Positions 3,576-54,008 of a stretch of 64,000 bases of DNA are shown here, in pieces. Position numbers and translations under genes: made by a program. Source of the stretch: Oribacterium sp. NK2B42 (GTDB lineage Bacteria > Bacillota > Clostridia > Lachnospirales > Lachnospiraceae). The notes under the pieces are model-generated. The model ran no database searches. It was not told the origin of the DNA and was given only the letters and a program-made list of their open reading frames with translations. How positions within the stretch are numbered: position 1 is the stretch's first letter; each line of letters begins with the position of its first letter. Where the stretch lies: positions 62,001 to 126,000 of the forward strand of contig NZ_AUJX01000005.1 in NCBI RefSeq assembly GCF_000424445.1, written 5' to 3'.

Positions 3576-3630
3576 TAATCCGGAGTTATTGGAACCACTG
3601 ATTGACCTTAAAACTCAGAATTCAGAATAT

Positions 3631-3842
3631 AAGTCAATGTAACCTGCCATTCAGGATGACCTAAATCCTGATTGCCTGAAATTGAGTCATTGTAACCTGC
3701 CATTCAGAATGACCCAAATCCTGATTACCTGAAATTAAGTCATTATAACCTGCCATTCAGGATGACTCAAATCCTGATTACCTGAAATTAAGTCATTATA
3801 ACCTGCCATTCAGGATGACTCAAATGCTGGTAACCGGAATAT
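3631..3842 (+). repeat. Four-unit 53-bp tandem repeat with nested inverted repeats
   Basis: Units begin at 3631, 3684, 3737 and 3790 with exactly 53-bp spacing; a fifth partial copy starts at 3843. Each unit contains AACCTGCCATTCAGGATGAC and a nested dyad (TTCAGGAT, 7-nt loop, ATCCTG, then CCTGAA), so each could fold as a hairpin. Units differ by a few substitutions. There are no unique spacers, so it is not a CRISPR array. It lies between aroK and tRNA-Thr(GGU), and no gene is visible in 3527-3938. Confidence 0.9.
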
Positions 3843-7594: not shown

Positions 7595-7704
7595 ACGAGC
7601 GTAAGTTACAATCACTCAAATCATACACGATTTGAACCACATATTATATTTGAGCGAAATATTATAGATATAAGTTTTGAACTACATAAAGGAGCATAAA
7701 TATC

Positions 7705-9195: not shown

Positions 9196-9209
9196 CAGGA
9201 GCAATATTC

Positions 9210-12200
9210 ATGGATTATTTCAAAAAAGAAATGGATTTTGAAAAAGCACTTATCACCGCACTTCAGAGTTATGGCTGGGAGAAGAAGGTGATTTACAATC
9301 CTACGGAAAAGGATCTGATACAGAACTGGGCTGATATCCTGTTTGAGAACAACAGAGATATTGACCGCCTTAATGACTGCCCCCTGATTCCGGAGGAAAT
9401 GGATGAACTGCTTGAGCAGATCAGAGAAAAGAGAACACCTCTTGCCCTTAATGGATTTATAAACGGTAAAACTGTTGCCATCACCAGAAAGAATCCTGAT
9501 GACAAGCTCCACTATGGGAAAGAAGTAAGCCTGAAAATATATGACCGCATGGAGATTGCAGCAGGTCAGAGCAGATATCAGATTGCCGAACAGCCACAGT
9601 TTCCACGTCACGATAAGGTTCTTCAGGACAGAAGAGGAGATCTGATGCTTCTGATAAACGGTATGCCCGTTTTTCATATCGAGCTAAAACGTTCAGGAGT
9701 GCATGTAAATGAAGCAGTAAATCAGATTGAAAAGTATGCCCACGAAAACATCTTCACCGGTCTGTTCTCGCTGGTTCAGGTTTTTGTCGCTATGAACCCG
9801 GATGAGACCTTGTACTTTGCAAACCCGGGACCGGATGGGAAATTCAATCCTGATTTCTACTTTCATTGGGCGGACATGAACAATGACCCTATAAATAATT
9901 GGAAAATAGTTGTTGAGCGCCTTCTATCCATCCCTATGGCACATCAGCTCATAGGGTTCTACACTGTCGCAGATGATGCTGACGGTGTCCTAAAGGTAAT
10001 GAGAAGCTATCAATACTATGCCGCAAACAAGATTTCTGATCGCGTAGCAAAAAACGACTGGAATGCAGGCAATCAGCTTGGGAGATACGTTTGGCACACA
10101 ACCGGCTCCGGAAAGACCATGACTTCCTTTAAGTCAGCGCAGCTTATTGCAAATTCAAAGGATGCAGATAAGGTTGTATTCCTTATGGACAGAATCGAAC
10201 TTGGCACTCAGTCCCTTAAAGAGTATCGCGCTTTCGCAGATAATGCTGACGATGTGCAGGAAACTGAAGATACAATAACTCTTATTTCCAAGCTCAAAAG
10301 CACAGACCCTAAGAATACGTTGATAGTATCCTCTATTCAAAAAATGAGTAATATCAAAGAAGATGCTGTAAGCAAGATGCGTGCAAAGGATCTTGAGGAC
10401 ATGAAGAGTAAGCGATTAGTTTTCATCATAGATGAGTGCCATCGTTCAACCTTCGGAGAGATGTTATCAACCATAAAAGAAACATTTCCCAATGCTCTTT
10501 TCTTCGGATTTACCGGAACTCCGGTATTTAAAGAAAATGAGCAGGCTTTAAGCACCACATCAGATATCTTCGGAAGCGAGCTTCATCGATACAGTATTGC
10601 CGATGGAATAAGGGATAGGAATGTTCTGGGATTTGATCCTACCATGGTGTCTGTATACCGTGACAAAGACCTTAGAAAGAGGGTTGCTATTCGGGAATCG
10701 GGTGCTTCATCCGAGGTAGAAGCAATCTCTGACCCGGTAATGAGCAAAAAATATTATAAATTTATGTCCTCATCAGAAGTGCCCATGGCAGGAAAGATTC
10801 TGCCTGATGGCAGTTATCGAAAGGGAATAGAGGATTATATAGAGAAAGAAGCATGGCAAACAGATGAGTATCAGTATGCAGTTATCGACGATATGATGGA
10901 AAACTGGCCTACATTAAGCAGAAACAATAAGTTCCATGCCATATTTGCAACTGCAAGCATCCCGGAAGCCATACGTTACTACCGTAAATTCCGTGACAGA
11001 TATCCTGATTTAAAGATCACCGGTTTATTTGATCCGACCATCGATAATCAAGGTGGCAGCAAGTCACTTGAAAAGGAAGATGGATTAAAGGAAATGCTGG
11101 AAGACTACAATAGTATTTACGGTCAAAACTTTGATATCGGTGGTTATGCGAAGTTTAAAAAGGATGTTTCTTCAAGACTTGCTCACAAGCGCCCTTATGA
11201 GCGCCTGAAGCCGGAACAACAGTTGGATCTTTTGATCGTTGTAAACCAGATGCTTACAGGTTTTGATTCAAAATGGATAAATACTCTGTACCTTGACAAA
11301 GTGCTTACTTATCAAAACCTTATCCAGGCCTTTTCAAGAACAAACCGTCTTTTCAATATAAATGAAAAGCCTTTTGGTTCCATAAGATATTACAGGCTTC
11401 CTCATACAATGAAAAGAAATGTGGATGATGCCGTTAAACTTTATTCCGGTGACAAACCGCAGGGACTCTTTGCAGATCATCTTCCTGCAAATGTAGCGCA
11501 TATGAACATATCATTTAAGGATATGGTGGATATTTTCAAACAATCCGGCATTCCCGATATGGACCGACTGCCGGATGATACTCCTTCAAGGGCTAAGTTT
11601 GCAAAGCTTTTCCGTGAATTTTCTACATATCTTCAGGCAGCAAGGATTCAGGGCTTTAGCTGGAATAAGAAAGAGTATCCGGTAAAAACGGAGAGTGATG
11701 ATGTGGAGGGCGAAAACATTATACTGATCCCAACTGAAGAACAGTATCAGATTCTTTCCCAAAGATATAAAGAGCTTCGAAGACCCGGTAGTGTAAATGG
11801 CGATTTTGAAGAAATTACTTTTCCCATTGACCCGTATCTTTCTGAGCAGAACACCGGTATCATCGATAATGACTACATGAATTCACGCTTTGAAAAGTGG
11901 AAGAAGCAGTTGGAAGACCCAGAAGCTGATCCGAAAGAGATTGAATCAACTTTAGAAGAACTGCATAAGTCATTTGCTTTCCTGTCTCAAGATGAGCAGA
12001 AATATGCAAATCTTTTCCTTCATGATGTTCAGTCCGGAGATGCCAAATTTTATGTAGATTATACGCTGCGTGACTATATCATTGAATACGCTCAGAACAC
12101 AAAAACCGAGCAGATACGAATACTGGTCAAATATCTGGGTGTGTCAGAGCCTAAACTTAAAGATATGATGAATGCTCACGTTTCTCAAACAAAGCTTAAC

Positions 12201-12389
12201 GAGTACGGACGTTTTGATGCTTTGAAAGCCACTGTGGTTCGTGAAAAAGCACAGGAATACTTTTCCAGAGTTGATGGGAAAAAGCTACCGCCATTTCTTG
12301 TAAGTAATCGTGTAGACAAGCTTCTGACTAAGTTTATCCTTGAAGATGGGTTCGATATCCCGGATCCTGACAAGACAGAAAACAATTAA
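9210..12389 (+). CDS. hsdR: Type I restriction endonuclease subunit R
   Basis: Motor and nuclease subunit of the type I system, 1059 residues, full length. The PD-(D/E)xK nuclease core is near residues 135-165 (PVFHIELKRSG), the helicase Walker A TTGSGKTMTS near 297, Walker B IIDECHRS near 409, GFTGTP near 433 and a late helicase motif QAFSRTNRLF near 710. Nothing in it looks damaged, in contrast to its neighbours hsdS and the AlbA gene. It starts 15 bp after the AlbA gene with an AGGAG site (9198-9202) and is followed by a recombinase gene. Confidence 0.94.
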   Translation: MDYFKKEMDFEKALITALQSYGWEKKVIYNPTEKDLIQNWADILFENNRDIDRLNDCPLIPEEMDELLEQIREKRTPLALNGFINGKTVAITRKNPDDKLHYGKEVSLKIYDRMEIAAGQSRYQIAEQPQFPRHDKVLQDRRGDLMLLINGMPVFHIELKRSGVHVNEAVNQIEKYAHENIFTGLFSLVQVFVAMNPDETLYFANPGPDGKFNPDFYFHWADMNNDPINNWKIVVERLLSIPMAHQLIGFYTVADDADGVLKVMRSYQYYAANKISDRVAKNDWNAGNQLGRYVWHTTGSGKTMTSFKSAQLIANSKDADKVVFLMDRIELGTQSLKEYRAFADNADDVQETEDTITLISKLKSTDPKNTLIVSSIQKMSNIKEDAVSKMRAKDLEDMKSKRLVFIIDECHRSTFGEMLSTIKETFPNALFFGFTGTPVFKENEQALSTTSDIFGSELHRYSIADGIRDRNVLGFDPTMVSVYRDKDLRKRVAIRESGASSEVEAISDPVMSKKYYKFMSSSEVPMAGKILPDGSYRKGIEDYIEKEAWQTDEYQYAVIDDMMENWPTLSRNNKFHAIFATASIPEAIRYYRKFRDRYPDLKITGLFDPTIDNQGGSKSLEKEDGLKEMLEDYNSIYGQNFDIGGYAKFKKDVSSRLAHKRPYERLKPEQQLDLLIVVNQMLTGFDSKWINTLYLDKVLTYQNLIQAFSRTNRLFNINEKPFGSIRYYRLPHTMKRNVDDAVKLYSGDKPQGLFADHLPANVAHMNISFKDMVDIFKQSGIPDMDRLPDDTPSRAKFAKLFREFSTYLQAARIQGFSWNKKEYPVKTESDDVEGENIILIPTEEQYQILSQRYKELRRPGSVNGDFEEITFPIDPYLSEQNTGIIDNDYMNSRFEKWKKQLEDPEADPKEIESTLEELHKSFAFLSQDEQKYANLFLHDVQSGDAKFYVDYTLRDYIIEYAQNTKTEQIRILVKYLGVSEPKLKDMMNAHVSQTKLNEYGRFDALKATVVREKAQEYFSRVDGKKLPPFLVSNRVDKLLTKFILEDGFDIPDPDKTENN

Positions 12390-12402
12390 ATAGCTTTAAA
12401 GT

Positions 12403-12415
12403 CCTTCATCGGCGT
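12403..12415 (+). repeat. Left arm of 13-bp inverted repeat flanking the recombinase
   Basis: CCTTCATCGGCGT, perfectly inverted as ACGCCGATGAAGG at 13375-13387. The pair brackets the recombinase gene 12431-13360 almost exactly and could be its recombination sites. Confidence 0.7.
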
Positions 12416-12430
12416 AGGAAGGAGACAAAA

Positions 12431-13360
12431 ATGCCGAATGATTTTCAACCGACCGACATGTTGAAGGACTACTATGAGAAGTGGATTTCAGTATACAAAG
12501 AGGGAGCAATCAGGGATGTCACTCTGGCAAAGTATCAAATGAGCCACATGTGGATCACCAGGCTTGCACCTGAACTCAGACTTTGTGATGTTACACGTGT
12601 TGCATACCAACAAATCATAAATGAATATGCAAAGGAGCATGAGAGACAAACAACCATGGACTTTCATCATCAGCTGAAAGGGGCAGTACTGGATGCTGTT
12701 GATGAGGGTCTTGTGCCCAGAGACCCCACAAGGAAGGTCATAATAAAAGGAAAAACTCCGTCTACAAAGAAGACAAAATATCTAAACCAATTTGAATTAC
12801 ATACCCTTCTTAAAAGCTTGAAGCTTGATGACACAATTAACTGGGATTGGTTTATCTTACTTGTTGCCAAAACCGGAATGCGTTTTTCAGAGGCACTCGC
12901 TGTTACGCCTAATGACTTTGATTTTGCTCATCAGGCATTATCCGTAAACAAGACCTGGAACTATAAAGCAGGCGGCGGTTTCTCCCCAACGAAGAATAAG
13001 TCTTCTGTCAGAAAAATCCAGATAGACTGGCAGCTTGTAATGCAGTTTGCAACCTTGGTCAAAGGGCTACCTTTAGATAAACCTATCTTTGCCACCAAAG
13101 AGAAGGTATATAACTCTACCGTTAATGACATCCTGACAAGATACTGCACTAAGCTGAACATTCCTGTGATATCTGTTCATGGTCTTCGTCATACACATGC
13201 CTCCATACTTCTCTATGCAGGAGTATCTATAGCGAGCGTTGCGAGAAGACTTGGGCATGCAAGTATGACAACAACACAGAAGACATCCCTTCATGTTATC
13301 CAGGAACTTGAGAACCAGGACATTGACCTTGTTATGAGATCTCTGTCAAATCTGACGTAA
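12431..13360 (+). CDS. Tyrosine recombinase/integrase lacking the catalytic tyrosine
   Basis: 309 residues: a SAM-like DNA-binding N-terminus (about 5-110) and a phage-integrase catalytic domain (about 115-300). The first Arg is in KTGMRFSEAL near 150, HGLRHTHAS gives the His-x-x-Arg pair near 246, and LGHASMTTTQKTSLHV supplies the last His but has Ser at residue 286 (TCC, 13286-13288) where relatives have the nucleophilic Tyr (KTYLH). One A to C change explains it. Recombinases of this type next to hsdS genes switch specificity by DNA inversion, so this copy is probably locked. Expression would use AAGGAG at 12418-12423. Confidence 0.88.
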   Translation: MPNDFQPTDMLKDYYEKWISVYKEGAIRDVTLAKYQMSHMWITRLAPELRLCDVTRVAYQQIINEYAKEHERQTTMDFHHQLKGAVLDAVDEGLVPRDPTRKVIIKGKTPSTKKTKYLNQFELHTLLKSLKLDDTINWDWFILLVAKTGMRFSEALAVTPNDFDFAHQALSVNKTWNYKAGGGFSPTKNKSSVRKIQIDWQLVMQFATLVKGLPLDKPIFATKEKVYNSTVNDILTRYCTKLNIPVISVHGLRHTHASILLYAGVSIASVARRLGHASMTTTQKTSLHVIQELENQDIDLVMRSLSNLT

Positions 13361-20800: not shown

Positions 20801-21574
20801 AAGCTGCGCAGTGATTCAAGGTACGAATTATGCAAATATAACTATGAAAACGAAAAAGTCATAGTAGGCTCTATCGATACGGCGGATATCAGAGATAAAA
20901 GCAATGCCAAAATCACATTGTCTGTGGATGAAACAAAGGATTCAGGGGTTGATGTGACTTTGGAATTTTCAGATACTGATAATGCTGAGAACGTGCAAAA
21001 CCCGGCAGAGCCGGATCATAATACAGGCAGAGCTTTGGCAGCCAGGGCAAATGTCTCCGTAGAAAGGTCGAAGGCTGCCGTGACTGAGGGTGATGCTGAG
21101 ACTGCTGCTAATAGTGAAGTGGTAGTTGACGATAGCAATGATGTTAATACGAATACTGTTGGAGAAACAACTATTGCCGTAAGTGAAGTTAATGATGATA
21201 CCGATATTGTTGACTCCGGTGATGATGATGTTTCTGATGTCAATAAGAATGCTGTTGGAGAGACGACGATTGCCGAAAGTAATGTTAATGATGATACCGA
21301 TATTGTTGACTCCGGTGATGATGATGTTTCTGATGTCAATGAGGGCGCTGTTGGAGATACTACAGTTGACAGTAGTGTGGAAAATGCCGGAAATGATGAC
21401 ATGATCAATGATGTCAGGGATGAAAAGGATTCCGGTATTGCCGTTAATGATGACGTCGTAAATGAAGAAGCCGTTGGCGGTAAAGATGAGGTTGCCTGCG
21501 ATGTTGATGGCACTGTCAATAGTGGTGATGAGACCGCCGTATTCGATGATTCCCTGACGGATCTTGACAGCTGA
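17879..21574 (+). CDS. Secreted thermolysin-like (M4-type) metallopeptidase with surface repeats and acidic tail
   Basis: 1231 residues. A signal peptide (about 1-42, ending VEALAAPDS) is followed by two copies of a 72-residue module (FNPFFYALQYPDAAL and FDPVFYAAAYPDAAL, each ending in a Trp-rich DDWxxW block), seen on many Lachnospiraceae surface proteins. The peptidase domain has zinc motif HELGH near residue 634, a glutamate helix HEGYADISGN near 658 and HAHATIYGNICY near 733, fitting a divergent thermolysin fold. The last 220 residues are Asp/Val/Thr-rich with 2.5 copies of a 32-residue repeat encoded by a 96-bp DNA repeat (from 21188 and 21284). No LPXTG or lipobox, so it is probably released. 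AGGAG precedes ATG 17879. Confidence 0.82.
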   Translation: MRITNRDNYKLMKLRTFRRRIAAASMAAAILSALVPVEALAAPDSVSAASAAQANLAYEQRLAQAASENAAVPQTIKDLFNPFFYALQYPDAALEAGTDIESLYQHFLTKGIYNGYRCNSYFDIKKYRDDHPELASYLGDDWDMWVAYFFMGQNAPGSLRASFDPVFYAAAYPDAALQCGNDPEALYHHYITFGLNMGYAGNAYFNLYKYRAAHPAFGSLYGNDWEAWLRGFYTTGLTGGGKPDYKRNDELKALTEARGYDSSDSSDSFDGNSISDGNGNVLIPVSEIGRYLTLDELRERCGDSLILVTDAEGYVTFVGGHFTDVQVSDDHDSEKAIECMLKLIGFPEGQILKFSRSVTNSMGHVYYQFTEADQGGTRNNYLSVISLGTDDSGKVISLSSNCNAKLSEEDKAEAKVIMDDILKKLEKNNETLLTTGFETVSIPYQNAYCKVFYGKDKNGHVSKYIINPGGNYIYNIGKYSDIPTEENGLYAYDYLFADAVETEAIRFKDYFNNDVTLSVATMKKGEKTYYYLVDKDRRIAANLKEAHENDDLTKGFDSLDDIHSYYVQSFVTIQKSYDYYKKLGFFDDDKVTPIIVRFDEDDTSDNAFCCHYGDYIEVDISNNTGNAAFDGVSHELGHGILFGMAPVTNYVKDGSFHEGYADISGNILEMLLFLAGDPTTGQTVDLDKWSIEESVGVDTTIRSMGDPESMEGASKVGGKNYLVTHRDGENCHAHATIYGNICYRMKKELDIPLDDLLRIWYDALPNITGSSTYKDIQSFVAYSTRLHGYEELADDVSKLFDDANADGYSDKWTELKAADDYVTDIPVIIDDYGDIFGDYFKSTYNNIYLSIAGVENGTEASVDKYGNLGAILEKGSSLPQYDRLNIYYNENIYSYPFKVPTDSQVHIDSKDVISALNSMCELEYSVDGLSELDYDLELSTDDYCDYYIYRVDDENKDYVPIYIPLKAYPEHTPLKLRSDSRYELCKYNYENEKVIVGSIDTADIRDKSNAKITLSVDETKDSGVDVTLEFSDTDNAENVQNPAEPDHNTGRALAARANVSVERSKAAVTEGDAETAANSEVVVDDSNDVNTNTVGETTIAVSEVNDDTDIVDSGDDDVSDVNKNAVGETTIAESNVNDDTDIVDSGDDDVSDVNEGAVGDTTVDSSVENAGNDDMINDVRDEKDSGIAVNDDVVNEEAVGGKDEVACDVDGTVNSGDETAVFDDSLTDLDS
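21188..21360 (+). repeat. 96-bp coding tandem repeat in the peptidase tail
   Basis: GTTAATGATGATACCGATAT recurs at 21188 and 21284, exactly 96 bp (32 codons) apart, with neighbouring blocks nearly identical. Copy number could vary by slippage without shifting the frame. Confidence 0.85.
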
Positions 21575-21596: not shown

Positions 21597-21648
21597 AAAA
21601 ACGGTATCCCATACAGCATTTTCTGCTTTGGGATACCGTTTTTTTGTT
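21597..21648 (+). terminator. Terminator after the metallopeptidase, overlapping an iteron-like site
   Basis: Arms AACGGTATCCCA / TGGGATACCGTT with a loop of about 16 nt run into TTTTTGTTATAAC. The descending arm plus T-run spells CCGTTTTTTTGTTATA (21636-21651), a match to the iterons of the 47-kb origin. Confidence 0.85.
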
Positions 21649-21715
21649 ATAACTTTACAGGGAAGCCGTCATAACTTATATGTATATTTTTTGTGACGTA
21701 AATCTTACGAAATTC

Positions 21716-29836: not shown

Positions 29837-30637
29837 TTGGACAAGGAAACCCTGGACTATCAGGCATTGGAAACCGAGAACTTAAAGCTTGTGGAACGCA
29901 TTCAGAAAAACCTTGATAAAAAGGATGCCGAAGCAGAGCTTTGCGAGAAAAACAAAGGGCTCATCCTGCAGATAGTCCGTAACTACGTGAATCTATCCAA
30001 CCATACACTTAGCCATGAGGATCTGGAAAGCGTGGGTAAGATCGGTCTAATAAAAGCTTCCCAAAGCTATGACCCTTCCTACGGAGCAAAATTTTCCACC
30101 TATGCGGTTTACTGGATCCGAGACAGTATCGTAAAAGAGATCTACAATGCCGGATTCGGCATCCGTCTCTCAAACCATCAGCTGGAACGCATTTTCAAGG
30201 TTCAGAGCATTATGCGTAAACGTGATCTTGAGCACCTTGAGGGTGATGACATGATCCATGCCATCATGGAGGACTCCGGTTTTTCCGAAGAAGAGGTCCG
30301 CAAATGTCTCCGGCTTAACAACGTGGTCCTGGGAGCAACCTCTCTTAACAAAAAAATCGGAAAAGAGGATGACGAAACCTCTGAGCTCGGGGAGTTGACC
30401 ATCTCACCGGATAATGTTGAAGAGATCGTTATGGAGCACGAGCTCCATCAGGAGCTGTACCAGTCACTGAATACACTTTCCGATGATGAACGTGACACTT
30501 TGGTACTGAGATACGGTCTTTATGACGGAAAGCAGCACACCCTGAAGGAAATTGCAGCTCTTTCCAATGTCTCCATCGAAGCCATAAGACAGAGGGAACA
30601 GAGAGCTATAAGAAAGCTCCGAAAGGAGCTGGACTAA
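29837..30637 (+). CDS. Sigma-70 family RNA polymerase sigma factor (regions 2-4)
   Basis: 266 residues, soluble, binding core RNA polymerase. Region 2 spans about 40-115 (LESVGKIGLIKASQSYDPSYGAKFSTYAVYWIRDSI), region 3 about 120-180 and region 4 about 200-262 (LSDDERDTLVLRYGLYDG with HTH IAALSNVSIEAIRQREQRAIRKL). Region 1.1 is absent and the -10 recognition helix differs from housekeeping factors, so this is an alternative sigma factor. The start is TTG at 29837, set by GGAGG at 29826-29830. A second, RpoD-like sigma gene lies at 43649. No anti-sigma gene is adjacent. Confidence 0.88.
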   Translation: MDKETLDYQALETENLKLVERIQKNLDKKDAEAELCEKNKGLILQIVRNYVNLSNHTLSHEDLESVGKIGLIKASQSYDPSYGAKFSTYAVYWIRDSIVKEIYNAGFGIRLSNHQLERIFKVQSIMRKRDLEHLEGDDMIHAIMEDSGFSEEEVRKCLRLNNVVLGATSLNKKIGKEDDETSELGELTISPDNVEEIVMEHELHQELYQSLNTLSDDERDTLVLRYGLYDGKQHTLKEIAALSNVSIEAIRQREQRAIRKLRKELD

Positions 30638-31843: not shown

Positions 31844-33886
31844 ATGCAGGACGATATTTTTAAAGAAGAACAGAATCATTTGACAGAGCTTTATAACAAG
31901 CTTACGAACATGAAGGCTCAGATGGAGGCAGAACTCATCGATCTCCAAAACCAGGCCACAGAAGAGAAAAACACAGTAAGTGACGACCTTCAGTATGACT
32001 TTGTGGGTATAGAAGAGGCTCAGGAAACTCTTATCGAATTTGAGACCATGAGCCGCGCTGTTGAAGAGCTGAATATCAGCAGCCGTACTGTAAGCACAGC
32101 CCTTTCAAAGGTCAACAGGCTTTTGCCAAGACCCTACTTTGCCCGTATCAATGTCCGTTTCCCGGAGGAAACCGAAGATGAGTCCTACTATATCGGCACT
32201 ACCTCTGTGTCCAATGAAGATCATGAGCCCGTGGTCATTGACTGGAGAAGCCCTATAGCGGAGGTTTACTATAATCAGCAGATGGGAGAGACCTTCTATT
32301 CAGTTGACGACAGAAAGATCCCTGTGGATCTGAAGCTCAGAAGGCAGTTTGACATTGAACAGAACCTTCTGAAGGCCTACTTTGACACAAAGATCGCCCT
32401 GGAGGATCCGCTGCTTATACATTCCCTCACAAGAAAAAGAACGGATAAGATGCAGTCCATCACCGAAACCATCCAGAAGGAGCAGAATGCCATCATCCGT
32501 CACCCGGATGTCCCGGTTTTACTGGTCCAGGGTATCGCAGGAAGCGGCAAGACCTCTGTACTCCTTCAGCGAATAGCCTATCTTTTTTACAGAAGGCGTA
32601 AAAATCTGCGCCCGAACCAGGTATGTCTCATAACTCTGAACCCGGTTTTCCAGCAGTACATCGATAACGTTCTGCCTGAAATGGGCGAGGCTAACCCCAA
32701 CACCATGACCTGGTCACTGTTCCTGGATACCATCGGTGTTAAGAGTCTCGGAGAAGCGGATATCACGGAGGCAGATTCCCTCCGGCAGATTGATGAAGGA
32801 CTTAAGGGCTTTAAGATCGACGAGCGTTTCATCCATGGCATCAATCTTAAACACGCAAAGGTTCTTGATAAAAAGCAGATCGCCGGGGTTCTTCGTAAGT
32901 ACAGAAGCTCCAGCTCCACAGCCTGGATCATCCAGACAGCAATAGAAGATCTCCAGGAGCTGGCAAAGAAAAATGCCAAAAAGATCGAAAACAAGAACAA
33001 AGAGCTGGATCTCGACAACATCAGTTTTGACGATTTTGATCCGGACGAGAATCAGTTCGGAGGAGTTCAGGAAAAAATCCAGAATCTCAGCTGGCTTGAC
33101 ATCGAAGGCATCGGTAAGAAAATCCTGGGTAAGGATGATCTGACACCTGCGGAGTTTACTTATCTCAAGATGTCACTTATCGGCTACAGCGACCATAACA
33201 CCCGCTATGTAATCGTGGATGAAGTTCAGGATTATACGGAAGCACAGCTTATGGTCATGACGAAGTATTTCAGGAATGCACATTTCATGATGCTGGGGGA
33301 TGAGTTCCAGTCCATACACAGCGGAACAGCCCGGTTCGAAGACATTAGCAGGATGTTTACTTCACAGGGAAAAGAAGTCACCCATATGTCACTGATGACC
33401 AGCTACCGTTCTTCACCGGAGATAACCTCTCTGTTTACGGGGCTCCTTCCAAAGGAGATAAGTGTACAGACAAATTCTGTTCAAAGAGAGGGCATCGAGC
33501 CGGAGATCCTTGCCTTTGGAAATCATGAGGAGTACGTTGAAAAACTTAAATCCGTCATAGCCGAAAACACCCGGACAGAAGGGCTCACAGCCATCATTTG
33601 TCAGGACAGGTCGGGCATCAACATGATGACCAGGGATCTCGGTGAAGAGCTGCCTCATGTGGTGAAAAATTACGAGAAGCTCCCGAAAAGCGGCATTATC
33701 CTTATGGAACTTAAGCTTGCCAAGGGACTGGAGTTCGATACCGTTATCCTTCCGGATGTGAACATAAGGGAATACCCGGACAGGGAACTTTTCAGGCACA
33801 GACTCTATACCGCCATGTCCAGAGCGACGGAAAAGCTTATCATAATGTCAGACGGCGAGATTTCACCGCTGATGAAAAGTGAATAA
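31844..33886 (+). CDS. helD: HelD-like superfamily 1 ATPase (RNA polymerase recycling)
   Basis: 680 residues. The N-terminal 70-residue coiled coil (IFKEEQNHLTELYNKL...) is the arm HelD pushes into the polymerase secondary channel. Walker A QGIAGSGKTSVLLQR is near 228, Walker B YVIVDEVQDYTEAQL near 456, MLGDEFQSIHSG near 480 and the late motif AMSRATEKLIIMSD near 657. The conserved VIDWRSPIAEVYY block near 130 is HelD-specific. HelD uses ATP to strip RNA polymerase from stalled complexes. AGGAAAG precedes the ATG. A UvrD-type helicase follows. Confidence 0.88.
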   Translation: MQDDIFKEEQNHLTELYNKLTNMKAQMEAELIDLQNQATEEKNTVSDDLQYDFVGIEEAQETLIEFETMSRAVEELNISSRTVSTALSKVNRLLPRPYFARINVRFPEETEDESYYIGTTSVSNEDHEPVVIDWRSPIAEVYYNQQMGETFYSVDDRKIPVDLKLRRQFDIEQNLLKAYFDTKIALEDPLLIHSLTRKRTDKMQSITETIQKEQNAIIRHPDVPVLLVQGIAGSGKTSVLLQRIAYLFYRRRKNLRPNQVCLITLNPVFQQYIDNVLPEMGEANPNTMTWSLFLDTIGVKSLGEADITEADSLRQIDEGLKGFKIDERFIHGINLKHAKVLDKKQIAGVLRKYRSSSSTAWIIQTAIEDLQELAKKNAKKIENKNKELDLDNISFDDFDPDENQFGGVQEKIQNLSWLDIEGIGKKILGKDDLTPAEFTYLKMSLIGYSDHNTRYVIVDEVQDYTEAQLMVMTKYFRNAHFMMLGDEFQSIHSGTARFEDISRMFTSQGKEVTHMSLMTSYRSSPEITSLFTGLLPKEISVQTNSVQREGIEPEILAFGNHEEYVEKLKSVIAENTRTEGLTAIICQDRSGINMMTRDLGEELPHVVKNYEKLPKSGIILMELKLAKGLEFDTVILPDVNIREYPDRELFRHRLYTAMSRATEKLIIMSDGEISPLMKSE

Positions 33887-33898
33887 GTGCTGATCCTT

Positions 33899-34054
33899 GC
33901 CCGCTCATGGTCATGCGGAGCCCACGATCATAGAGGACAGAACCAAAGACCGGGCAGACCTTGGGATTCCATCCCTGCCCGCTCATGCTCATGCGGAACC
34001 CACGATCATAGAAGACAGAACCAAAAACCGGGCAGACCTTGGGATCCCATCCCT
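33899..34054 (+). repeat. Two-copy 78-bp direct repeat between helD and the UvrD helicase
   Basis: GCCCGCTCATG starts copies at 33899 and 33977, exactly 78 bp apart; copies differ at only a few bases. Each ends with a GC-rich dyad (CGGGCAG ... CTGCCCG). The period equals 26 codons and the stretch is open in the frame of the next gene. Confidence 0.85.
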
Positions 34055-34088
34055 GCCCGGGAATTTATATCGGAGATTATTACTATTT

Positions 34089-36970: not shown

Positions 36971-37028
36971 AGGAAATCCTCCGTGTATTTCACCGTATAT
37001 TTGTTATGAGTACATATAAAAGCAATAT

Positions 37029-37370: not shown

Positions 37371-37937
37371 TCAAAAGTGTTTTGAATCTCTGGCGGCGGT
37401 GATCTCTTCAGCTGTCATATGATCAAGCATCCCATATTCCATGTTGTAGGTCACAAATTCATCGTAATCATACATATCTTCAAAAGTGGTCATTCGGAAT
37501 TCCGGGTCCTGTTCATCCTTTTCACCATCCTCGAGATATTCAGCCTTAAGGATAGATATAACATATTTACGGTCTTCTGAAGGCATGTTTTTGGCAGGAC
37601 TCTTTCCGCTGTCTTCACAGGAATGGATATAGCTCTGAATAACCGCATGCAATGCATATTCTTCGTAGATGTTGGGGATGAAATCATCCTTTGATTTAAC
37701 CCCCTTAAGAAGAGATATATATGCTGAAGCGGCGTCGAGCTTTGAGTAATGATCCGGGAAATAGTACTTAATATTCTCCTGAAACTCCGTATCATCGGAA
37801 TTCACCTTGAGATAGCTTTTTCCGGATGCATTTTCCATATAATTTATGAGAAGAGACATGATACGGTTATTAATGAACTCGGAGATGCATGCATTGGCTT
37901 TCTGATCTCTTGTGAATTGTGTTGTGATCTTTAACAT
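37371..37937 (-). CDS. Conserved-looking hypothetical protein, acidic C-terminus
   Basis: 188 residues, soluble, helical, with an acidic C-terminal third (EYLEDGEKDEQDPEFRMTTF, then FEDMYDYDEFVTYNMEYGML). No family recognised. AAGGA precedes the ATG at 7 bp, coding-like base use. It is transcribed alone, convergent with the glutaredoxin-like gene. An iteron-like site (38030-38045) lies in its upstream region. Confidence 0.6.
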   Translation of the reverse strand: MLKITTQFTRDQKANACISEFINNRIMSLLINYMENASGKSYLKVNSDDTEFQENIKYYFPDHYSKLDAASAYISLLKGVKSKDDFIPNIYEEYALHAVIQSYIHSCEDSGKSPAKNMPSEDRKYVISILKAEYLEDGEKDEQDPEFRMTTFEDMYDYDEFVTYNMEYGMLDHMTAEEITAARDSKHF

Positions 37938-38029: not shown

Positions 38030-38045
38030 TATAACAAATTAACGG
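38030..38045 (-). repeat. Dispersed iteron-like site
   Basis: Minus strand reads CCGTTAATTTGTTATA, matching the origin iteron consensus at every conserved position, 9 kb from the origin. Confidence 0.7.
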
Positions 38046-38797: not shown

Positions 38798-39322
38798 ATG
38801 TTTGATGAAAACTACAGGCTTGGACTTGATACAGACTATATGATAAGAAAAGATCTGGTACGTTTTTTCGATATAGACGGTGTGCTGGCGATCTACGGAT
38901 ATGGTTCCGACGGCATAAATGTTTGCAGTGATGAAGAATTTGACACTTTTGTGGAAGAGCACGATATCTACGAGACTGCCGTGGGGGCTGAGATCATGAA
39001 GCAGTATATAAGTCGCTTCACAGATCCTAACCGTAATTTTGTTATAAGCTTATCCGGTTCCGGTACACAGGATGCCCAGAAGGTAAAATTCATAAATAGG
39101 GTTTATCCCGGTTTATTCCCACCGGAAAACATCCTTTTCACCAGAGGTTCCGACAAATCCCCCATTGTGAAAGAGACTCTTGAAAAAAGATTCCGGGGCT
39201 TGGAAACTCCGCATCTCTTCATTGATGATGATATAAGGATCCTTGACAAGCTCCAGTGCGCCGGCATCACTGCCATGCACATATCGAGCCTTTTGCTTCT
39301 GGCCGATATAAAATCAATTTAG
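38798..39322 (+). CDS. HAD-like hydrolase, small
   Basis: 174 residues. VRFFDIDGVLAIYGY near residue 21 is a HAD motif I (DxDGV), FVISLSGSGTQDAQKVKFI near 81 is a motif II candidate, and ETPHLFIDDDIRILDKL near 145 is motif IV. The cap is short, so a protein or nucleotide phosphatase role is possible but not determinable. TTGGAGG precedes the ATG. Confidence 0.68.
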   Translation: MFDENYRLGLDTDYMIRKDLVRFFDIDGVLAIYGYGSDGINVCSDEEFDTFVEEHDIYETAVGAEIMKQYISRFTDPNRNFVISLSGSGTQDAQKVKFINRVYPGLFPPENILFTRGSDKSPIVKETLEKRFRGLETPHLFIDDDIRILDKLQCAGITAMHISSLLLLADIKSI

Positions 39323-43648: not shown

Positions 43649-44752
43649 ATGATACATAGTGATAGAGAGCTTCTGGAGGAAAAGCACACCATATTCATCG
43701 ATTCAGATGATTATAATGTTACTTCTCCGGAAGACAATGTTTTTAGTGAGTTTGATGACAACTCTGATGTCATCAAAAATATTAAGGAGTCTTCACTGAC
43801 AGGCATCAACCCGGAAAGAGACGATTTTTCTGACGAGGAAATATCCGAAGAAGAGCTTTCTGAAGAAGATAAGGAAGTCAGAGCCCTTGACATGGAGGCT
43901 CTCACAAATCTTGAAAATGTTTCCGCCGACGATCCGGTACGTATATACCTTAAAGAGATCGGAAGCTATCCGCTCCTTACTCCGGAGCGCGAACATGATC
44001 TTGCAGTTCGCTGCAAAAACGGAGATATGGCAGCGAAACAGGAACTGGTGGAATGTAACCTGAGACTTGTGGTTTCCATCGCAAAGCGCTATACCGGTCG
44101 TGGCATGAATTTCCTGGATCTGATACAGGAGGGAAACATTGGCCTCATGCGTGGGGTAGAGAAATTTGAACCGGACAGAGGTTTTAAGCTTTCTACCTAT
44201 GCAACCTGGTGGATCCGTCAGTCAATAGCAAGAGCCCTTGCCGATCAGTCAAGAACCATCAGAGTGCCTGTTCACATGGTGGAACTCATAAATAAGATCA
44301 AGAAAACCTCTCGTCAGCTTGCCTTAGAGCTTGGACATGAGCCTACGACTTTTGATCTTAGTGAAGCCCTCAATATTCCGGAGGAACGCATTCAGGAGGT
44401 TATCAACTACGATGCCGGTCCTGCGTCCCTTGACAGCAAGGTGGGAGAGGATGAGGATTCAGATCTTGGTTCATTCATAGCAGATGATAAGATCACTTCA
44501 CCGGAGCAGAACATTAATAATGTAATGATGAAGCAGCAGCTTGAAAAGATTCTGGTAAACCTCAGTGAACGTGAACGCGAAGTCATTGAGATGAGATATG
44601 GTCTTGTGGATGGCCGCGAAAGAACTCTTGAGGAAATCGGAACCATGTACCACGTTACCCGTGAGCGTATCCGTCAGATCGAGAATAAAGCATTGCATAA
44701 ACTTCAGAATCCGAAGTATAAGCGTGAGCTTGACGGATTCCTTGAAAACTGA
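43649..44752 (+). CDS. RpoD-type (group 1/2) sigma-70 factor
   Basis: 367 residues. The N-terminal 85 residues are acidic and low complexity, replacing a normal region 1.1. Region 1.2 has [22 protein letters not shown], region 2 [20 protein letters not shown]...[20 protein letters not shown], region 3 about 235-290 and region 4 [15 protein letters not shown] plus [26 protein letters not shown]. The region 2.4 and 4.2 residues fit recognition of standard TATAAT/TTGACA promoters. It is not next to dnaG, so it may be the housekeeping factor or a close paralogue. No ribosome site clearer than AGGAAG at 43640 is seen. Confidence 0.88.
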
Positions 44753-44970: not shown

Positions 44971-44986
44971 TATAACAGATTTACGG
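44971..44986 (-). repeat. Dispersed iteron, perfect consensus copy
   Basis: Minus strand CCGTAAATCTGTTATA, identical to the origin consensus, 56 bp upstream of the gene at 45042 and 2 kb from the array. Confidence 0.75.
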
Positions 44987-46920: not shown

Positions 46921-47765
46921 TATAACATGATTACGGTAGAGTTTCCGGATCTTATAACATATTTACGGTAGAAGCTTATATAAAATGACGGTATCCTTCA
47001 TTTTTGAAGGATACCGTTTATTTGTTATAATCCGTCCCCCCCGGCTCCCCGACTGAACCGTTACAACCTGTGTTTTTTCGCCGTATATTTGTTATATGTT
47101 CGTATTCACTTATTCATCATTTGATTGTCCGGATATAAAATCACCGTAAATCTGTTATAAAGTCTGTCGAAAAGCAGACTCCGGGAAAACCTGTAACAAA
47201 TTTACGGCTTAAATATTTCTTACGATTGACCGTAAATCTGTTATATGCTTTGTATATAGACCGTCTTATAACAGATTTACGGTTTAATTTGTTCCTTACG
47301 CTTCTACCGTAATCCTGTTATAGGTTTACACTTATTACCGTCATTGTGTTATCTATCTCTACAGATCACCGTAATTTTGTTATAAGACGATTTTTACAAA
47401 AATTTCTTCATCCTTTAGTGCTATTTGACCATCACCGTTTATTTGTTATCTTTTGCCGTTATTTTGTTAGGGGTCACCGTTAATCTGTTATGCCTTACCG
47501 TGTTTTTGTTATTTCTGTGGATAAATAATGACGCAATTCTGCGGTGATCCGGCATTAAATAATATAAATATATATAATATTAAATATATAAAATAAAAAA
47601 CCAAAACATAAAAAAATACAATCCTGTGCGCGTGGGAAGCGAGTCAGAAAAGCATAATAACCGGTCTTTCATATGCCTGATCTGGGATTAATAAGCCAGT
47701 ATAATGCAATTATTTTTGCCTTTTTCGGAAATCCGGGTCAGAATAGAGATATAACAAAATTACGG
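46921..47765 (+). other. Iteron-type replication origin (array, DnaA box, AT-rich tract)
   Basis: Sixteen sites match CCGTNNNNNTGTTAT(A) with at most one mismatch: plus strand at 47014, 47081, 47144, 47230, 47307, 47338, 47369, 47435, 47456, 47477 and 47498; minus strand at 46921, 46953, 47192, 47267 and 47750. Spacing is exactly 31 bp in 47307/47338/47369 and exactly 21 bp in 47435-47498, i.e. three and two helical turns. A DnaA box TGTGGATAA (inverse of TTATCCACA) is at 47516-47524, and 47554-47620 is an almost pure A/T tract. The Rep_3 gene starts 65 bp after the last site. Confidence 0.85.
46986..47024 (+). terminator. Terminator containing an iteron
   Basis: ACGGTATCCTTC / GAAGGATACCGT with 6-nt loop followed by TTATTTG. 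As at 21597 the descending arm and T-run make an iteron (47014-47029). Confidence 0.7.
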
Positions 47766-47768
47766 TGA

Positions 47769-47797
47769 TTGATTTTTCAGGTTAAGAGTTTTACTAT
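47769..47797 (+). promoter_or_regulatory. Promoter of the Rep gene next to an iteron
   Basis: TTGATT 47769-47774, 17-bp spacer, TACTAT 47792-47797. The iteron at 47750-47765 ends 3 bp before the -35, an ideal place for autoregulation by the initiator. Confidence 0.7.
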
Positions 47798-47829
47798 ATT
47801 GACATGCGAGAGAAACGGAGTTCTTAAAA

Positions 47830-48681
47830 ATGTCAGCATATAAAACGCAAAAAGAAAAAGTTGAGGATCAACGTACATATCTTGTTGTTAAAGACAACGC
47901 ACTCATACAAAAAGCCAAGTACAATCTTACAGCCAATGAGCAGAAGCTTGTAAACTTTGTTATCACTTTAATAAAACCCGGTGAGGAAGAGTTTAAAAAG
48001 TATGAGATCCGTGCACTTGATTTTGCTAGACTTTGCGGAATTGATCCGAAGAATGTTTATCGTGATTTCAGAAATATGATCGATTCCATCGATGAAAAGG
48101 CATTCTGGGTAAACATCGATAACAGAGTCATAAAACTCAGATGGTTCAATGAGCCCGAGTATAATGAGCGCAAAGGAACCATAAGTCTCCTTCTTGACAG
48201 CCGTATAAAAACCTATCTTCTTGGCCTTCAAAACAATTTTACGGAATATGAGCTTTACAATATCCTTTCCATGACAAGCAAGTATTCACCGAGATTGTAT
48301 GAGCTTGCAAAGTCTTATGCTTATAAAGGACATGTTGATATTCCTATCGATACATTGAGAGAGAACCTCATGGCAGATGTTTACAGTGCTTTCGGAAATT
48401 TCAAGCAGAGAGTTCTGTCACCGGCCATAAAGGAGATCAATGAATATACCGATATCACAGTTACCTATGACTGCATTACGGATAAGGGTGAACTTGTTAA
48501 AGGAAGACTTCAGGGAAAAAGGATAACACACATCAGACTTTATATAGAAAACAAGGATACTCTTGATCGTTTTGCTACATATAACAAGACTGTAGGCAAG
48601 ATAGAAAAGAGAAATCTTCAGTTCAAAGGTCAGTTAAGTCTCAATTTCGATGACTCGGGAAGGCTTGTTGATATAGCATAA
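47830..48681 (+). CDS. Rep_3-family replication initiator (RepB/RepA-like)
   Basis: 283 residues with the two winged-helix domains of plasmid initiators: LVVKDNALIQKAKYNLTANEQKLVNFVIT (residues about 18-46) begins the first, and ILSMTSKYSPRLYELAKSYA with VDIPIDTLRENL...FGNFKQRVLSPAIKEINEYTDI (about 150-215) the second, the part that reads iterons. It is full length and undamaged. The array, DnaA box and AT tract upstream make it the likely initiator of this origin. CGGAG is 13 bp before the ATG. A strong terminator follows (48750-48781). It sits among chromosomal genes, with no parA/parB, mob or relaxase nearby. Confidence 0.87.
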   Translation: MSAYKTQKEKVEDQRTYLVVKDNALIQKAKYNLTANEQKLVNFVITLIKPGEEEFKKYEIRALDFARLCGIDPKNVYRDFRNMIDSIDEKAFWVNIDNRVIKLRWFNEPEYNERKGTISLLLDSRIKTYLLGLQNNFTEYELYNILSMTSKYSPRLYELAKSYAYKGHVDIPIDTLRENLMADVYSAFGNFKQRVLSPAIKEINEYTDITVTYDCITDKGELVKGRLQGKRITHIRLYIENKDTLDRFATYNKTVGKIEKRNLQFKGQLSLNFDDSGRLVDIA

Positions 48682-48935: not shown

Positions 48936-49886
48936 ATGGCAGTAGAAATCAAACCGGTTCTCGAAGTTGAGGAAATCACAGATGATAAGAAGTTCGGACG
49001 TTTTGTATGTGCTCCGCTTGCTAAGGGCGAAGGTACAGTCATCGGTAATTCATTAAGACGTATCCTTCTTTCCTCTATGCCTGGTGCTGCAGTAAGTGAG
49101 GTAAAGTTCGAGGGAGTTTATCATGAATTTTCATCAATTCCCGGAGTAAAGGAAGATGTAAGTGATATCATCCTCAATTTAAAGAAGCTTGCTATAAAAA
49201 ATACATCATCCAGCGATGATCCTGTTATGGCATACATCGATTATGCCGGTGAAGGAGTTGTTCGCGGTTCTGATATCAAAGTTTCTTCTGAAGTAGAGAT
49301 CATTAACAAAGATCAGGTTATCGCTACACTTTCAGGAAAGGAAGCAAGACTCTATATCGAGATAAAGATAACAAAGGGTCGTGGATATGACGGTGCAAAC
49401 ACACGTGACCGCAGCGATCTGGCCATCGGTGTTATCGCAGTGGATTCTATTTACTGTCCTGTAGTAAAGGTTAACATCGTTATAGATCCTATCGAAGGCA
49501 CAAACGAAGAGAAGCTTACTCTTGATGTAACTACAAACGGAACCATGGCTCCGGATGATGCCGTATCACTTTCAGCACGTATTCTTGATTCACATCTTAA
49601 GCTTTTTGCTGATATGGATGTTGATACAGATAACGAAGTTAAGGTTGAGGATGCAGGCAGCAGTGATTCCAATGACCTTATGAATATGAACATCGATGAG
49701 CTTGAGCTTAGTGTTCGTTCATATAACTGTCTCAAGAGAGCCGGCATCAACACTGTCGGAGATCTTTGCAACAAGAATCTTGAAGATCTTTCAAAGGTTC
49801 GTAACATGGGTCGTAAGTCCATCGATGAGATTCTCGGAAAGCTTGATTCTATGGGACTTGCCCTTAGCAGCAGAGATGCAGAATAA
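48936..49886 (+). CDS. rpoA: RNA polymerase alpha subunit, stand-alone and divergent
   Basis: 316 residues. The N-terminal domain (1-225) has GNSLRRILLSSMPGAAVSEV with the assembly Arg, EFSSIPGVKEDVSDIILNL and IGVIAVDSIYCPVVKVN; the block that normally reads VENTRVGQxTDYDKL is replaced by the shorter IDPIEGTNEEKL. A linker leads to the C-terminal domain (about 245-310: ELSVRSYNCLKRAGINTVGDL, VRNMGRKSIDEIL) with the DNA-contacting Arg and Asn-Cys-Leu-Lys intact. rpoA is normally in the rpsM-rpsK-rpsD-rpoA-rplQ operon; here it is alone with its own promoter and terminator (49909-49938), so it is either a relocated gene or a second alpha. AGAGG precedes the ATG. Confidence 0.88.
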   Translation: MAVEIKPVLEVEEITDDKKFGRFVCAPLAKGEGTVIGNSLRRILLSSMPGAAVSEVKFEGVYHEFSSIPGVKEDVSDIILNLKKLAIKNTSSSDDPVMAYIDYAGEGVVRGSDIKVSSEVEIINKDQVIATLSGKEARLYIEIKITKGRGYDGANTRDRSDLAIGVIAVDSIYCPVVKVNIVIDPIEGTNEEKLTLDVTTNGTMAPDDAVSLSARILDSHLKLFADMDVDTDNEVKVEDAGSSDSNDLMNMNIDELELSVRSYNCLKRAGINTVGDLCNKNLEDLSKVRNMGRKSIDEILGKLDSMGLALSSRDAE

Positions 49887-49908
49887 ATAAATATATGAAA
49901 TTACAAAA

Positions 49909-49938
49909 GCGGTTTTCCTAAAGGGAAGGCCGTTTTTT
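49909..49938 (+). terminator. Terminator after rpoA
   Basis: CGGTTTTCC / GGGAAGGCCG stem with G-T pairs, then TTTTTTTG. CCGTTTTTTTGTTACA here is a near-iteron. Confidence 0.75.
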
Positions 49939-49950
49939 TGTTACAGCTCC

Positions 49951-50029
49951 GCCTGTGAACCATGGGGACGGGGTTGGTGGCCCATTTTCCTAAAATGAAC
50001 CACCAACCCCGTCCCCATGGTCCACAGGC
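49951..50029. repeat. 79-bp imperfect palindrome, GGGGACGGGG family
   Basis: Arms from GCCTGTGAACCATGGGG and its complement, with a few mismatches, meet around CATTTTCCTAAAATG. The inner part parallels 39351-39423. Confidence 0.85.
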
Positions 50030-50164
50030 TGTATTTTCACTTTTTTATGATGATACAGACATTCAATTCGTTAAAACTGAGACAGGCGGAGATATATTTG
50101 GTATGATTAGTATCATTAGGGAAGATTCTTTCGGAATTTTGGGAAATGTAAAAACGGAGGGGAA

Positions 50165-50650
50165 ATGGCTATACTCACAACTCTTTGCTATATAGAAAAA
50201 GATGATAAATACCTCATGCTTCACCGAACTAAGAAGCAGAACGATCTTAACCACGCCAGGTGGATCGGAGTAGGAGGAAAATTTGAAAAGGATGAGAGTC
50301 CTGAGGAGTGTCTTGTTAGGGAGGTTAAGGAAGAAACGGGATATATATTAACCTCATGGGAATACCGGGGGATAGTAACCTTTATCTCAGGCAGGGCAGA
50401 GTCGGAATATATGCATCTTTTCACAGCTGATGGTTTTACCGGGGAACAGATGGAATGTGATGAAGGAGAGCTTAAATGGGTGAACAAAAGTGAGGTGCCA
50501 AAGCTCAATGTGTGGCCGGGAGACCGCATTTTCCTGAAGCTTCTTCTGGAGAGAGAAAGCTTTTTTTCACTGAAACTTATATATGATAAAGAGGATCGTC
50601 TGATGGAAGCAAAGCTTGACGGAAAGCCATATAACGAAATTTCTGAATGA
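50165..50650 (+). CDS. Nudix hydrolase (8-oxo-dGTP diphosphatase-like)
   Basis: 161 residues. The Nudix box is complete: GVGGKFEKDESPEECLVRE and VKEETGY (residues about 37-61). The start MAILTTLCYIEKDDKYLMLHRT is typical of MutT/YtkD-type enzymes that clean nucleotide pools or cleave NDP-X. The tail after 115 is family-like. GGAGGGGAA directly precedes the ATG. It stands alone between the palindrome and the WYL regulator. Confidence 0.85.
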   Translation: MAILTTLCYIEKDDKYLMLHRTKKQNDLNHARWIGVGGKFEKDESPEECLVREVKEETGYILTSWEYRGIVTFISGRAESEYMHLFTADGFTGEQMECDEGELKWVNKSEVPKLNVWPGDRIFLKLLLERESFFSLKLIYDKEDRLMEAKLDGKPYNEISE

Positions 50651-53234: not shown

Positions 53235-54008
53235 ATGGTTCATTTTGTTGGTGCGGGTCCGGGGGATCCGGAACTTATCACTGTAAAAGGATTAAAGCTT
53301 ATTAAAGAAGCGGATATCGTGATATATGCGGGATCTCTGGTTAATGCTGAGCTCCTTAAAGTTTGCAAAAGTGAGGCAGAGATCTACGATTCCAAGGATA
53401 TGAATCTTCAGGAGGTGCTGAAGGTTTTCGAGGAAGCGAAGGAAGCAGGGAAAACTGTGGTGAGACTGCACACCGGAGATCCGTCTCTGTATGGTGCAAT
53501 TCGGGAGCAGATGGACTGGTTAAAGGAGAAGGGAATTGAATATGACATCTGTCCCGGAGTCAGCTCCTTTTCCGGGGCGGCAGCAGCCATCAGAAAAGAA
53601 TACACACTTCCCGGAGTAACACAGACAGTTATCATTACCAGAGCTGAGGGAAGAACTCCGGTTCCGGATAAGGAAAAGCTTAGTGTTCTGGCGGCTCATC
53701 AGGCCACCATGGTACTGTTTTTGTCAGCCACACTTTCAGAAAAGATCCGGGAGGAGCTGATAGCAGGAGGTTATCCTGTGGATACTCCTGCAGCTGTGGT
53801 ATTCAGGGCTACCTGGCCGGATGAAGAGGTGGTTTGGACAACTTTGGACAAAATTCCTGAGGCATTTCAGAGAGAAGAAGCAAGAAGAGCCGACGGAAAT
53901 ATGAAACAGGCTCTGATAATAGTAGGACGGGCAATTGATGACAAAACGGTCTATGAATATTCAAAGCTTTATGACCGTGAATTTGTTACATGTTATAGAG
54001 CCAGATAG
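53235..54008 (+). CDS. cbiF: Cobalt-precorrin-4 C11-methyltransferase
   Basis: 257-residue SAM-dependent tetrapyrrole methylase. VGAGPGDPELITVKGLKLI near residue 4 (glycine-rich loop), YAGSLVN near 32, VRLHTGDPSLYGAIREQMDWL near 76, and CPGVSSFSGAAAAI near 105 identify CbiF/CobM. It follows cbiD without any gap. A 229-bp interval with a partial repeat of the following leader separates it from cbiG. Confidence 0.93.
   Translation: MVHFVGAGPGDPELITVKGLKLIKEADIVIYAGSLVNAELLKVCKSEAEIYDSKDMNLQEVLKVFEEAKEAGKTVVRLHTGDPSLYGAIREQMDWLKEKGIEYDICPGVSSFSGAAAAIRKEYTLPGVTQTVIITRAEGRTPVPDKEKLSVLAAHQATMVLFLSATLSEKIREELIAGGYPVDTPAAVVFRATWPDEEVVWTTLDKIPEAFQREEARRADGNMKQALIIVGRAIDDKTVYEYSKLYDREFVTCYRAR

Follow-up and report, generated by a model that had tools for sequence, protein, structure and literature searches.

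A plasmid-type Rep_3 origin as a probable second replication origin beside dnaA-oriC in rumen Oribacterium

A single origin per chromosome is the rule in bacteria. The DNA considered here, from Oribacterium sp. NK2B42, raises the question of what a plasmid-type origin does among core genes: at 46.9–48.7 kb of the window, by which we mean the whole 64,000-nucleotide stretch that was analysed, an array of iterons precedes the intact gene of a Rep_3 (PF01051) initiator. The window corresponds to positions 62001–126000 of contig C4 (174,976 bases), part of a 3.79-Mb draft genome in 95 contigs. A preliminary description made from the sequence had offered three options, namely an integrated plasmid, a chromid or a second chromosomal origin. 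Our analysis fits best with an origin of the Rep_3/iteron type that derives from a plasmid and still works, as a second origin next to dnaA-oriC, on the main chromosome in the clade of rumen Oribacterium, a reading to which we assign a probability of roughly 0.6; a chromid or second chromosome stays as its chief rival, at odds that we put well below even. In the following, C3, C4, C7, C11, C26 and C38 are contigs of the window genome (G000), G178, G409 and the like are genomes of the genus, and C9, JC7, KHPX15, WCC10 and P6A1 are strains of relatives (strain C9 is thus not a contig number).

All the parts named in the preliminary description were recovered by motif scan and profile matches: the Rep_3 gene, which is intact, sixteen iterons that include two exactly phased runs, the DnaA box and the AT-rich tract. 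The motif CCGTN5TGTTA occurs 16 times within 46923–47765, with one run in exact 31-bp register (47307/47338/47369) and a second in exact 21-bp register (47435/47456/47477/47498). A perfect DnaA box follows the phased iterons; by itself it is not significant, TTATNCACA being observed twice in the window against 2.49 expected occurrences. The open reading frame (ORF) at 47830–48681 encodes a full-length initiator of 283 amino acids that matches Rep3_N (1.5e-34) and Rep3_C (2.1e-14). The parts are as follows.

46923 to 47765, 11 on the plus and 5 on the minus strand: iteron cluster, 16 copies of CCGTN5TGTTA (motif scan)
47306 to 47383, plus strand: three iterons in exact 31-bp register (motif scan)
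47434 to 47512, plus strand: four iterons in exact 21-bp register, adjoining the AT-rich tract (all four copies match the strict motif in 7 of 9 relatives)
47516 to 47524, minus strand: DnaA box TTATCCACA (TTATCCACA in 4, TTGTCCACA in 5 and neither in 1 of 10 aligned sequences)
about 47555 to 47616, no strand: AT-rich tract, probable unwinding element (conserved in the 10-sequence alignment)
47750 to 47766, minus strand: inverted single iteron directly upstream of rep, probable autoregulatory operator
47830 to 48681, plus strand: rep, Rep_3 initiator with WH1 and WH2 domains, 283 amino acids (profile matches)

A full-length initiator, helically phased iterons upstream of its gene, and an AT-rich tract with a DnaA box are among the features that define a Rep_3 iteron replicon, and the locus shares with Rep_3 iteron theta plasmids the initiator family, all of these elements and the inverted iteron upstream of rep. 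Unlike such plasmids, it lies among core genes, has no par or mob genes that we could find nearby and is common to a clade. The preliminary description is right about the flanks, where sigma factor, rpoA, aroE, pyrC and cbi genes are found. One difference from it is that the adjoining rpoA and rpoD-like genes are paralogues and not the only copies. That plasmid genes are missing nearby was borne out: no mobility or partition genes were present among the window genes scanned, and ParB was not found on the 174,976 bases of C4.

Rep is present at 91–100% identity in 10 of 17 genomes of the genus, and the other seven gave no match. Nine named relatives with a close Rep (strains KHPX15, WCC10, C9, JC7 and P6A1 and four metagenome-assembled genomes, recorded as rumen-type Oribacterium and Lachnospiraceae) account for nine of the 12 loci found; the remaining three are matches of 29–31% identity in Neolewinella and Saprospiraceae. 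In these nine relatives Rep is 91–99% identical, the inverted iteron upstream of rep is present throughout (9/9), and the strict four-copy 21-bp run is retained in seven, with two copies in S9M_St_59 and three in UBA6992, the latter also being the aligned sequence with neither form of the DnaA box. The dN/dS ratio of rep against the relatives is 0.013–0.036 (six pairs with computable dS). A sample of 397 genomes of the family, which contained just one other member of the genus, gave eight matches at E 1e-10 including the window genome, the other seven at 25–35% identity; among plasmid-borne Reps, the best 20 listed are 32.5–41% identical, and all 5000 records counted stay below 60%. We infer that the origin entered the main chromosome in an ancestor of the rumen Oribacterium clade.

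Evidence that the locus has fired comes from strand composition. Gene direction on C4 does not change at the cluster, with 72 plus and 6 minus genes to its left (n = 78) and 45 plus and 4 minus genes to its right (n = 49; Fisher p = 1). The GC-skew check proposed in the preliminary description for the surroundings of 47 kb shows that fourfold-site skew does switch near rep: for plus-strand genes it is −0.33 on the left (lagging type) and +0.067 on the right (leading type). For comparison, leading plus genes on C7 have −0.08 and lagging minus genes −0.41, and in 21 stretches of the rep-less G178 leading genes range from −0.10 to +0.25 and lagging genes mostly from −0.10 to −0.43 (three stretches with only 2–3 such genes gave −0.01 to +0.23). 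Counted per gene, an excess of G over C is seen in 4 of 73 left and 30 of 45 right genes (Fisher p ~1e-67 on base counts). The best single change point falls between rpoA and a NUDIX gene, about 2–3 kb to the right of the iterons, with a likelihood gain of 158 that was reached in none of 2000 permutations.

49411 to 50407 (between gene centres C4:111411 and 112407), no strand: best change point of fourfold-site GC skew over 119 genes

The lagging-type left arm recurs in five relatives, where rep-strand genes have skews of −0.32 to −0.42 in three stretches of WCC10, −0.40 in JC7, −0.40 in P6A1, −0.38 and −0.39 in strain C9 and −0.48 in one stretch of KHPX15; the right arm gives +0.07 in strain C9 and −0.03 in contig C15 of WCC10. 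The leading strand, in other words, switches at the Rep_3 locus, and it is very likely that this locus functions as an origin. Since gene direction is unbroken there while the skew switches, the origin seems to have been inserted into an existing replichore, reversing the fork of the left arm. A recent inversion would leave genes head-on yet with leading-type codons; the codons of the left arm are of the lagging type, and the fork direction has therefore presumably been stable for long. Among the left-arm genes, all head-on to the inferred left fork, are htpG, purF, a purH-type gene, purD, purL, glmS, rnfC, the V-ATPase A and B genes and tRNA genes. Over the approximately 109 kb of C4:1–108800 (including window positions 1–46800), 72 of 78 genes are head-on to that fork.

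Canonical dnaA-oriC was found not on the contig of the Rep_3 origin but on C38 (28.6 kb), which has the single Bac_DnaA_C match in the genome, a TIGR00362 match and DnaA boxes; unlike the Rep_3 origin, it combines a skew switch with divergent genes. Contigs of relatives connect the Rep_3 region to core genes. In strain C9 (contig C65) and JC7 (contig C2), rep, the right arm of C4 and asnB stand together on one contig; C65 also carries glnS (TIGR00440, above cut-off), and C2 an rpoD gene that passes the RpoD_Cterm cut-off, like its ortholog on C26 and unlike the window copy. The two contigs are collinear, 48 of 65 strain C9 genes (70–156 kb) matching JC7 in order. Contig C15 of WCC10, of which 192 of 343.5 kb were examined, overlaps both with seven of the eight genes at its start and continues to rpoD, an AEC-transporter gene and orthologs of the C7 genes polA, leuS and alaS; in the window genome, C7 also carries mutS and mutL. 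Contig C68 of KHPX15 likewise links asnB and the AEC gene. The replicon with the Rep_3 origin hence carries core genes, as a chromid does.

The same composite extends to a terminus. In the rep-less G178, after scaffold reordering, gene strand and skew flip between the orthologs of C7:115258 and C7:117451, which marks the terminus there; the strand flip of C7 lies at the same place, so that the inferred terminus corresponds to the end of C7. Distances measured in separate genomes (rep to asnB 98–114 kb, asnB to AEC 87–110 kb, AEC to the flip about 101 kb) sum to about 0.29–0.32 Mb between rep and terminus. A search of the terminus block for a dif site with a B. subtilis consensus yielded nothing convincing. 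Two skew-based origins that were considered for the oral-type G178 were set aside because this genome seems mis-scaffolded (dnaA at 1.111 Mb, dnaN at the contig start). On its 2.45-Mb scaffold C1, dnaA and dnaN are separated by 1.1 Mb, and N gaps occur at 379 kb and 1.112 Mb; after joint correction the replichores come to about 1.20 and 1.25 Mb by arithmetic (39 stretches of 20 kb out of 2.45 Mb examined, so that there may be further gaps).

A number of observations weigh against a working second origin on the main chromosome. Two stretches of KHPX15 are weaker in skew (−0.21 at 44–60 kb and −0.11 at 1–20 kb, the latter spanning the origin), the intergenic skew of the left arm is 0.00 rather than negative, and rep (−0.43, 28 sites) and rpoA (−0.66, 29 sites), although right of the iterons, are still of the lagging type. 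Composition, moreover, is a record of past and not of present firing. In both WCC10 (C23) and P6A1 (C12), the contig breaks off about 12–14 kb from rep in the 3′ part of a 23S rRNA gene that is encoded on the rep strand, hence head-on to the inferred left fork, an arrangement expected to be costly; in KHPX15 a 23S rRNA gene is located at the far contig end. The linkage to polA, leuS and the terminus is a composite of several genomes and not a single contig of the window genome, and none of the contigs seen links the Rep_3 region with dnaA (C38).

This last point is also the first in favour of the chief rival, a fission or capture event in which the Rep_3 origin would be the only origin of a separate second chromosome with rpoD, polA, leuS, alaS and the ancestral terminus, oriC driving the rest. 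An arm of about 0.3 Mb to the terminus would be reasonable in length, and Butyrivibrio, related Lachnospiraceae, is reported to have chromids (PMC5716241, PMC6249431). Among genomes at least 90% complete, six of seven with Rep measure 3.6–4.0 Mb (G406 has 2.3 Mb) and five of six without Rep 2.5–2.7 Mb (G411 has 4.0 Mb). What speaks against such a chromosome is that gene direction runs unbroken through the origin and that no ParB was found near it, whereas the B. fibrisolvens chromid is reported to have parB by its origin. Besides C4, ParB was not found by tblastn on strain C9 C65 (155,948 bases), JC7 C2 (186,460 bases) and WCC10 C15:1–192,000, so that the plasmid-type partition system of a chromid was not found near the origin. 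As to circularity, C4 has no exact end overlap of 16–200 bases, and the contigs of five relatives (strain C9 C65 as a whole, the other four by end stretches) have none of 16–300 bases. The argument for a chromid that C4 looked plasmid-like was weakened by the linkage to rpoD, polA and leuS and by the lack of ParB nearby. We regard a separate second chromosome as a tentative reading that has the better part of the odds against it, and the Rep_3 origin as somewhat likelier to share a DNA molecule with oriC than to stand apart from it.

An integrated plasmid whose origin no longer fires, the relic that the preliminary description had named under refutation, would agree with the lack of plasmid mobility and partition genes among the window genes scanned. 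It is very improbable because Rep is under purifying selection (dN/dS at most 0.036 where computable) and because strand composition switches at the origin, in several genomes; iteron phasing, too, is conserved in most relatives.

For a second origin on the main chromosome we propose the following course of events. The Rep_3 origin would have been inserted on one replichore, about 0.3 Mb short of the terminus. Rep would bind the phased iterons adjoining the AT-rich tract, would open this tract, by analogy with iteron plasmids with the help of DnaA and an HU-type protein, and would load the replisome in both directions. The right fork would run co-directionally with the genes to the terminus, and the left fork would move against the direction that the genes have had ancestrally, as far as its encounter with the fork coming from oriC. 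Rep probably represses itself via the inverted iteron upstream of rep, and single iterons, most of them no more than about 50 kb from the origin and a few at greater distance, would probably hold or titrate Rep and thereby limit firing.

These single iterons are new in that they had not been noticed in the preliminary description. Outside the cluster, the 174 kb of C4 contain 10 sites of the form CCGTN5TGTTAY against 0.58 expected from simulation (maximum 4 in 100 simulations); nine are less than 50 kb from rep, and the tenth is at −91 kb. Strict matches number 9–28 per genome in those with rep and 0–5 in those without a Rep match. Five of them occur in G410, which is 87% complete and has no Rep match; this genome shows a close inverted pair of the motif and two more copies (C9:230 and 267, and C245, contigs of that genome), and its rep may lie in an assembly gap. 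In the contigs of strain C9 and JC7, sites extend from −12 kb, where the contigs end on the left, to +36 and +41 kb of rep, respectively, and none was found beyond these positions in scans to the far ends. The window contains the following eight.

21636 to 21649, plus strand: single iteron, intergenic, upstream of pyrC (also in KHPX15)
36993 to 37006, plus strand: single iteron, intergenic (motif scan)
37559 to 37572, minus strand: single iteron within ORF 37371–37937 (same in KHPX15 and RUI013)
38032 to 38045, minus strand: single iteron, intergenic (motif scan)
39031 to 39044, plus strand: single iteron within ORF 38798–39322 (same in KHPX15 and RUI013)
44973 to 44986, minus strand: single iteron between the rpoD-like gene and ORF 45042 (also in KHPX15 and RUI013)
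49930 to 49943, plus strand: single iteron downstream of rpoA (motif scan)
53975 to 53988, plus strand: single iteron within cbiF (5 of 5 testable codons invariant in seven genomes; also in JC7 cbiF)

Some of the sites inside genes look selected. The AEC-transporter gene (C7:13318) contains the 16-bp iteron site TACCGTTTATTTGTTATATG, which is identical in all eight rep-bearing genomes with an AEC ortholog of at least 60% identity; all five codons at the site are invariant in these eight genomes, compared with 4 of 127 elsewhere in the gene. In the rep-less G409 the site is broken with the amino acids unchanged. Four of 12 matches stood outside this codon test, those of G409 and G411 (no rep found), that of G403 (48% identity, no site) and a second paralogue in G403; G405 has rep and no AEC match. 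At the cbiF site, five of five codons are invariant in seven genomes compared with 22 of 157 elsewhere (loci L046, L048 and L049, without a usable ortholog inside, being left out), and JC7 cbiF carries the site although it lies farther from rep. Such codon patterns make the AEC and cbiF sites look like targets of selection. A site in asnB (five of five codons invariant in five genomes compared with 84 of 330 elsewhere) was dropped as a general feature: the asnB genes of strain C9 and JC7 are without it, and it is weaker than the other two. The dispersed sites may serve to titrate or restrain Rep. The fuller proposal, in which the whole clade uses two unrelated origins to replicate its main chromosome, with the dispersed Rep sites regulating the Rep_3 origin, while one replichore segment has long been replicated backwards, its composition re-equilibrated and its head-on gene order kept, has in our judgement an even chance.

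The strict conservation of the AEC site, intact in eight of eight genomes with rep and broken in the rep-less G409, would also suit a crtS-like trigger that acts in trans and times a separate Rep_3 chromid. Contigs of strain C9 and JC7, however, put genes of C26 on the Rep_3 contig, and by contig overlap both the AEC and the asnB sites map to the replicon of the origin, rather than to another replicon as for crtS; the AEC gene is thus in cis, and its site is therefore hardly a trans-acting trigger. That Rep has ceased to replicate and become a transcription regulator with a dispersed regulon is the least probable reading of all, for while there are dispersed single sites, some upstream of genes (pyrC) and some under synonymous constraint, several conserved ones lie within coding sequence, the divergent leading strands at the cluster would be left unexplained, and RctB, as a studied parallel, appeared to control no transcription but its own, apart from a weak effect at one other gene (PMC11711613).

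Several known systems resemble a second origin of this kind. V. cholerae NSCV1 and NSCV2 are reported to have a natural single chromosome with ori1 and ori2, both of which fire in NSCV1 (PMC6284228), and so likewise combine a DnaA origin with a plasmid-type iteron origin. Those chromosomes are, according to the same source, two-chromosome fusions in single strains; the Oribacterium origin, unlike them, is placed within an unbroken block of gene direction, is common to a clade and has adapted composition around it. Butyrivibrio chromids (BPc2, BhuII and pINBov266), described as separate replicons of 91–267 kb (PMC5716241, PMC6249431), belong to Lachnospiraceae as well and combine replication genes of plasmid type with core or niche genes; they differ in being separate and, for pINBov266, in having parB at the origin. 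In Vibrio, the chromosome-2 initiator RctB is also reported to bind isolated sites elsewhere (PMC11711613). The crtS site, as described there, is on the other chromosome and has no similarity to the iteron or 39m motifs, whereas the Oribacterium sites match the iteron and lie on the same replicon. Mutating three prominent isolated RctB sites in V. cholerae reportedly had minimal effect (PMC11711613), and a 2026 survey names the finding of crtS-type timers in further systems as future work (PMC13342612).

Gao (2015) stated that evidence was lacking for any bacterial chromosome that uses two functional origins (PMC4403523). Among the literature matches listed, the natural exception to one origin per chromosome consists of the fused Vibrio strains (PMC6284228), and no paper on an Oribacterium origin or chromid is included. 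If our favoured reading is true, a clade-wide second origin of plasmid type would show how a two-origin chromosome stays stable, and the coordination of two initiators, the role of dispersed initiator sites and the tolerance of a long head-on arm with rRNA genes would become testable. Should the replicon instead be a separate chromosome, a case of chromosome fission carrying rpoD and polA would also be worth knowing.

Two RNA polymerase genes flank the origin.

43649 to 44752, plus strand: rpoD-like sigma factor gene, 58% identical to the rpoD of C26 (below the RpoD_Cterm cut-off, the C26 copy above it)
48936 to 49886, plus strand: second rpoA, 164 of 312 residues (53%) identical to the copy on C3 (adjoins rep also in KHPX15, strain C9 and JC7)

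At 29837–30637 there is a further sigma-like gene and at 31844–33886 a HelD-like gene, and these four genes, all within about 18 kb of the origin, possibly form an alternative RNA polymerase set. A second, more distant Rep_3 gene of the window genome, perhaps that of a plasmid, is present at C11:28491–28943. The window also has tandem repeats with units of 53 bp (3630–3829), 12 bp (8917–8994), 96 bp (21139–21357) and 78 bp (33893–34059), and at 4384–13360 it carries hsdM and hsdR, genes of type I restriction, together with a tyrosine recombinase gene, perhaps a phase-variable system.
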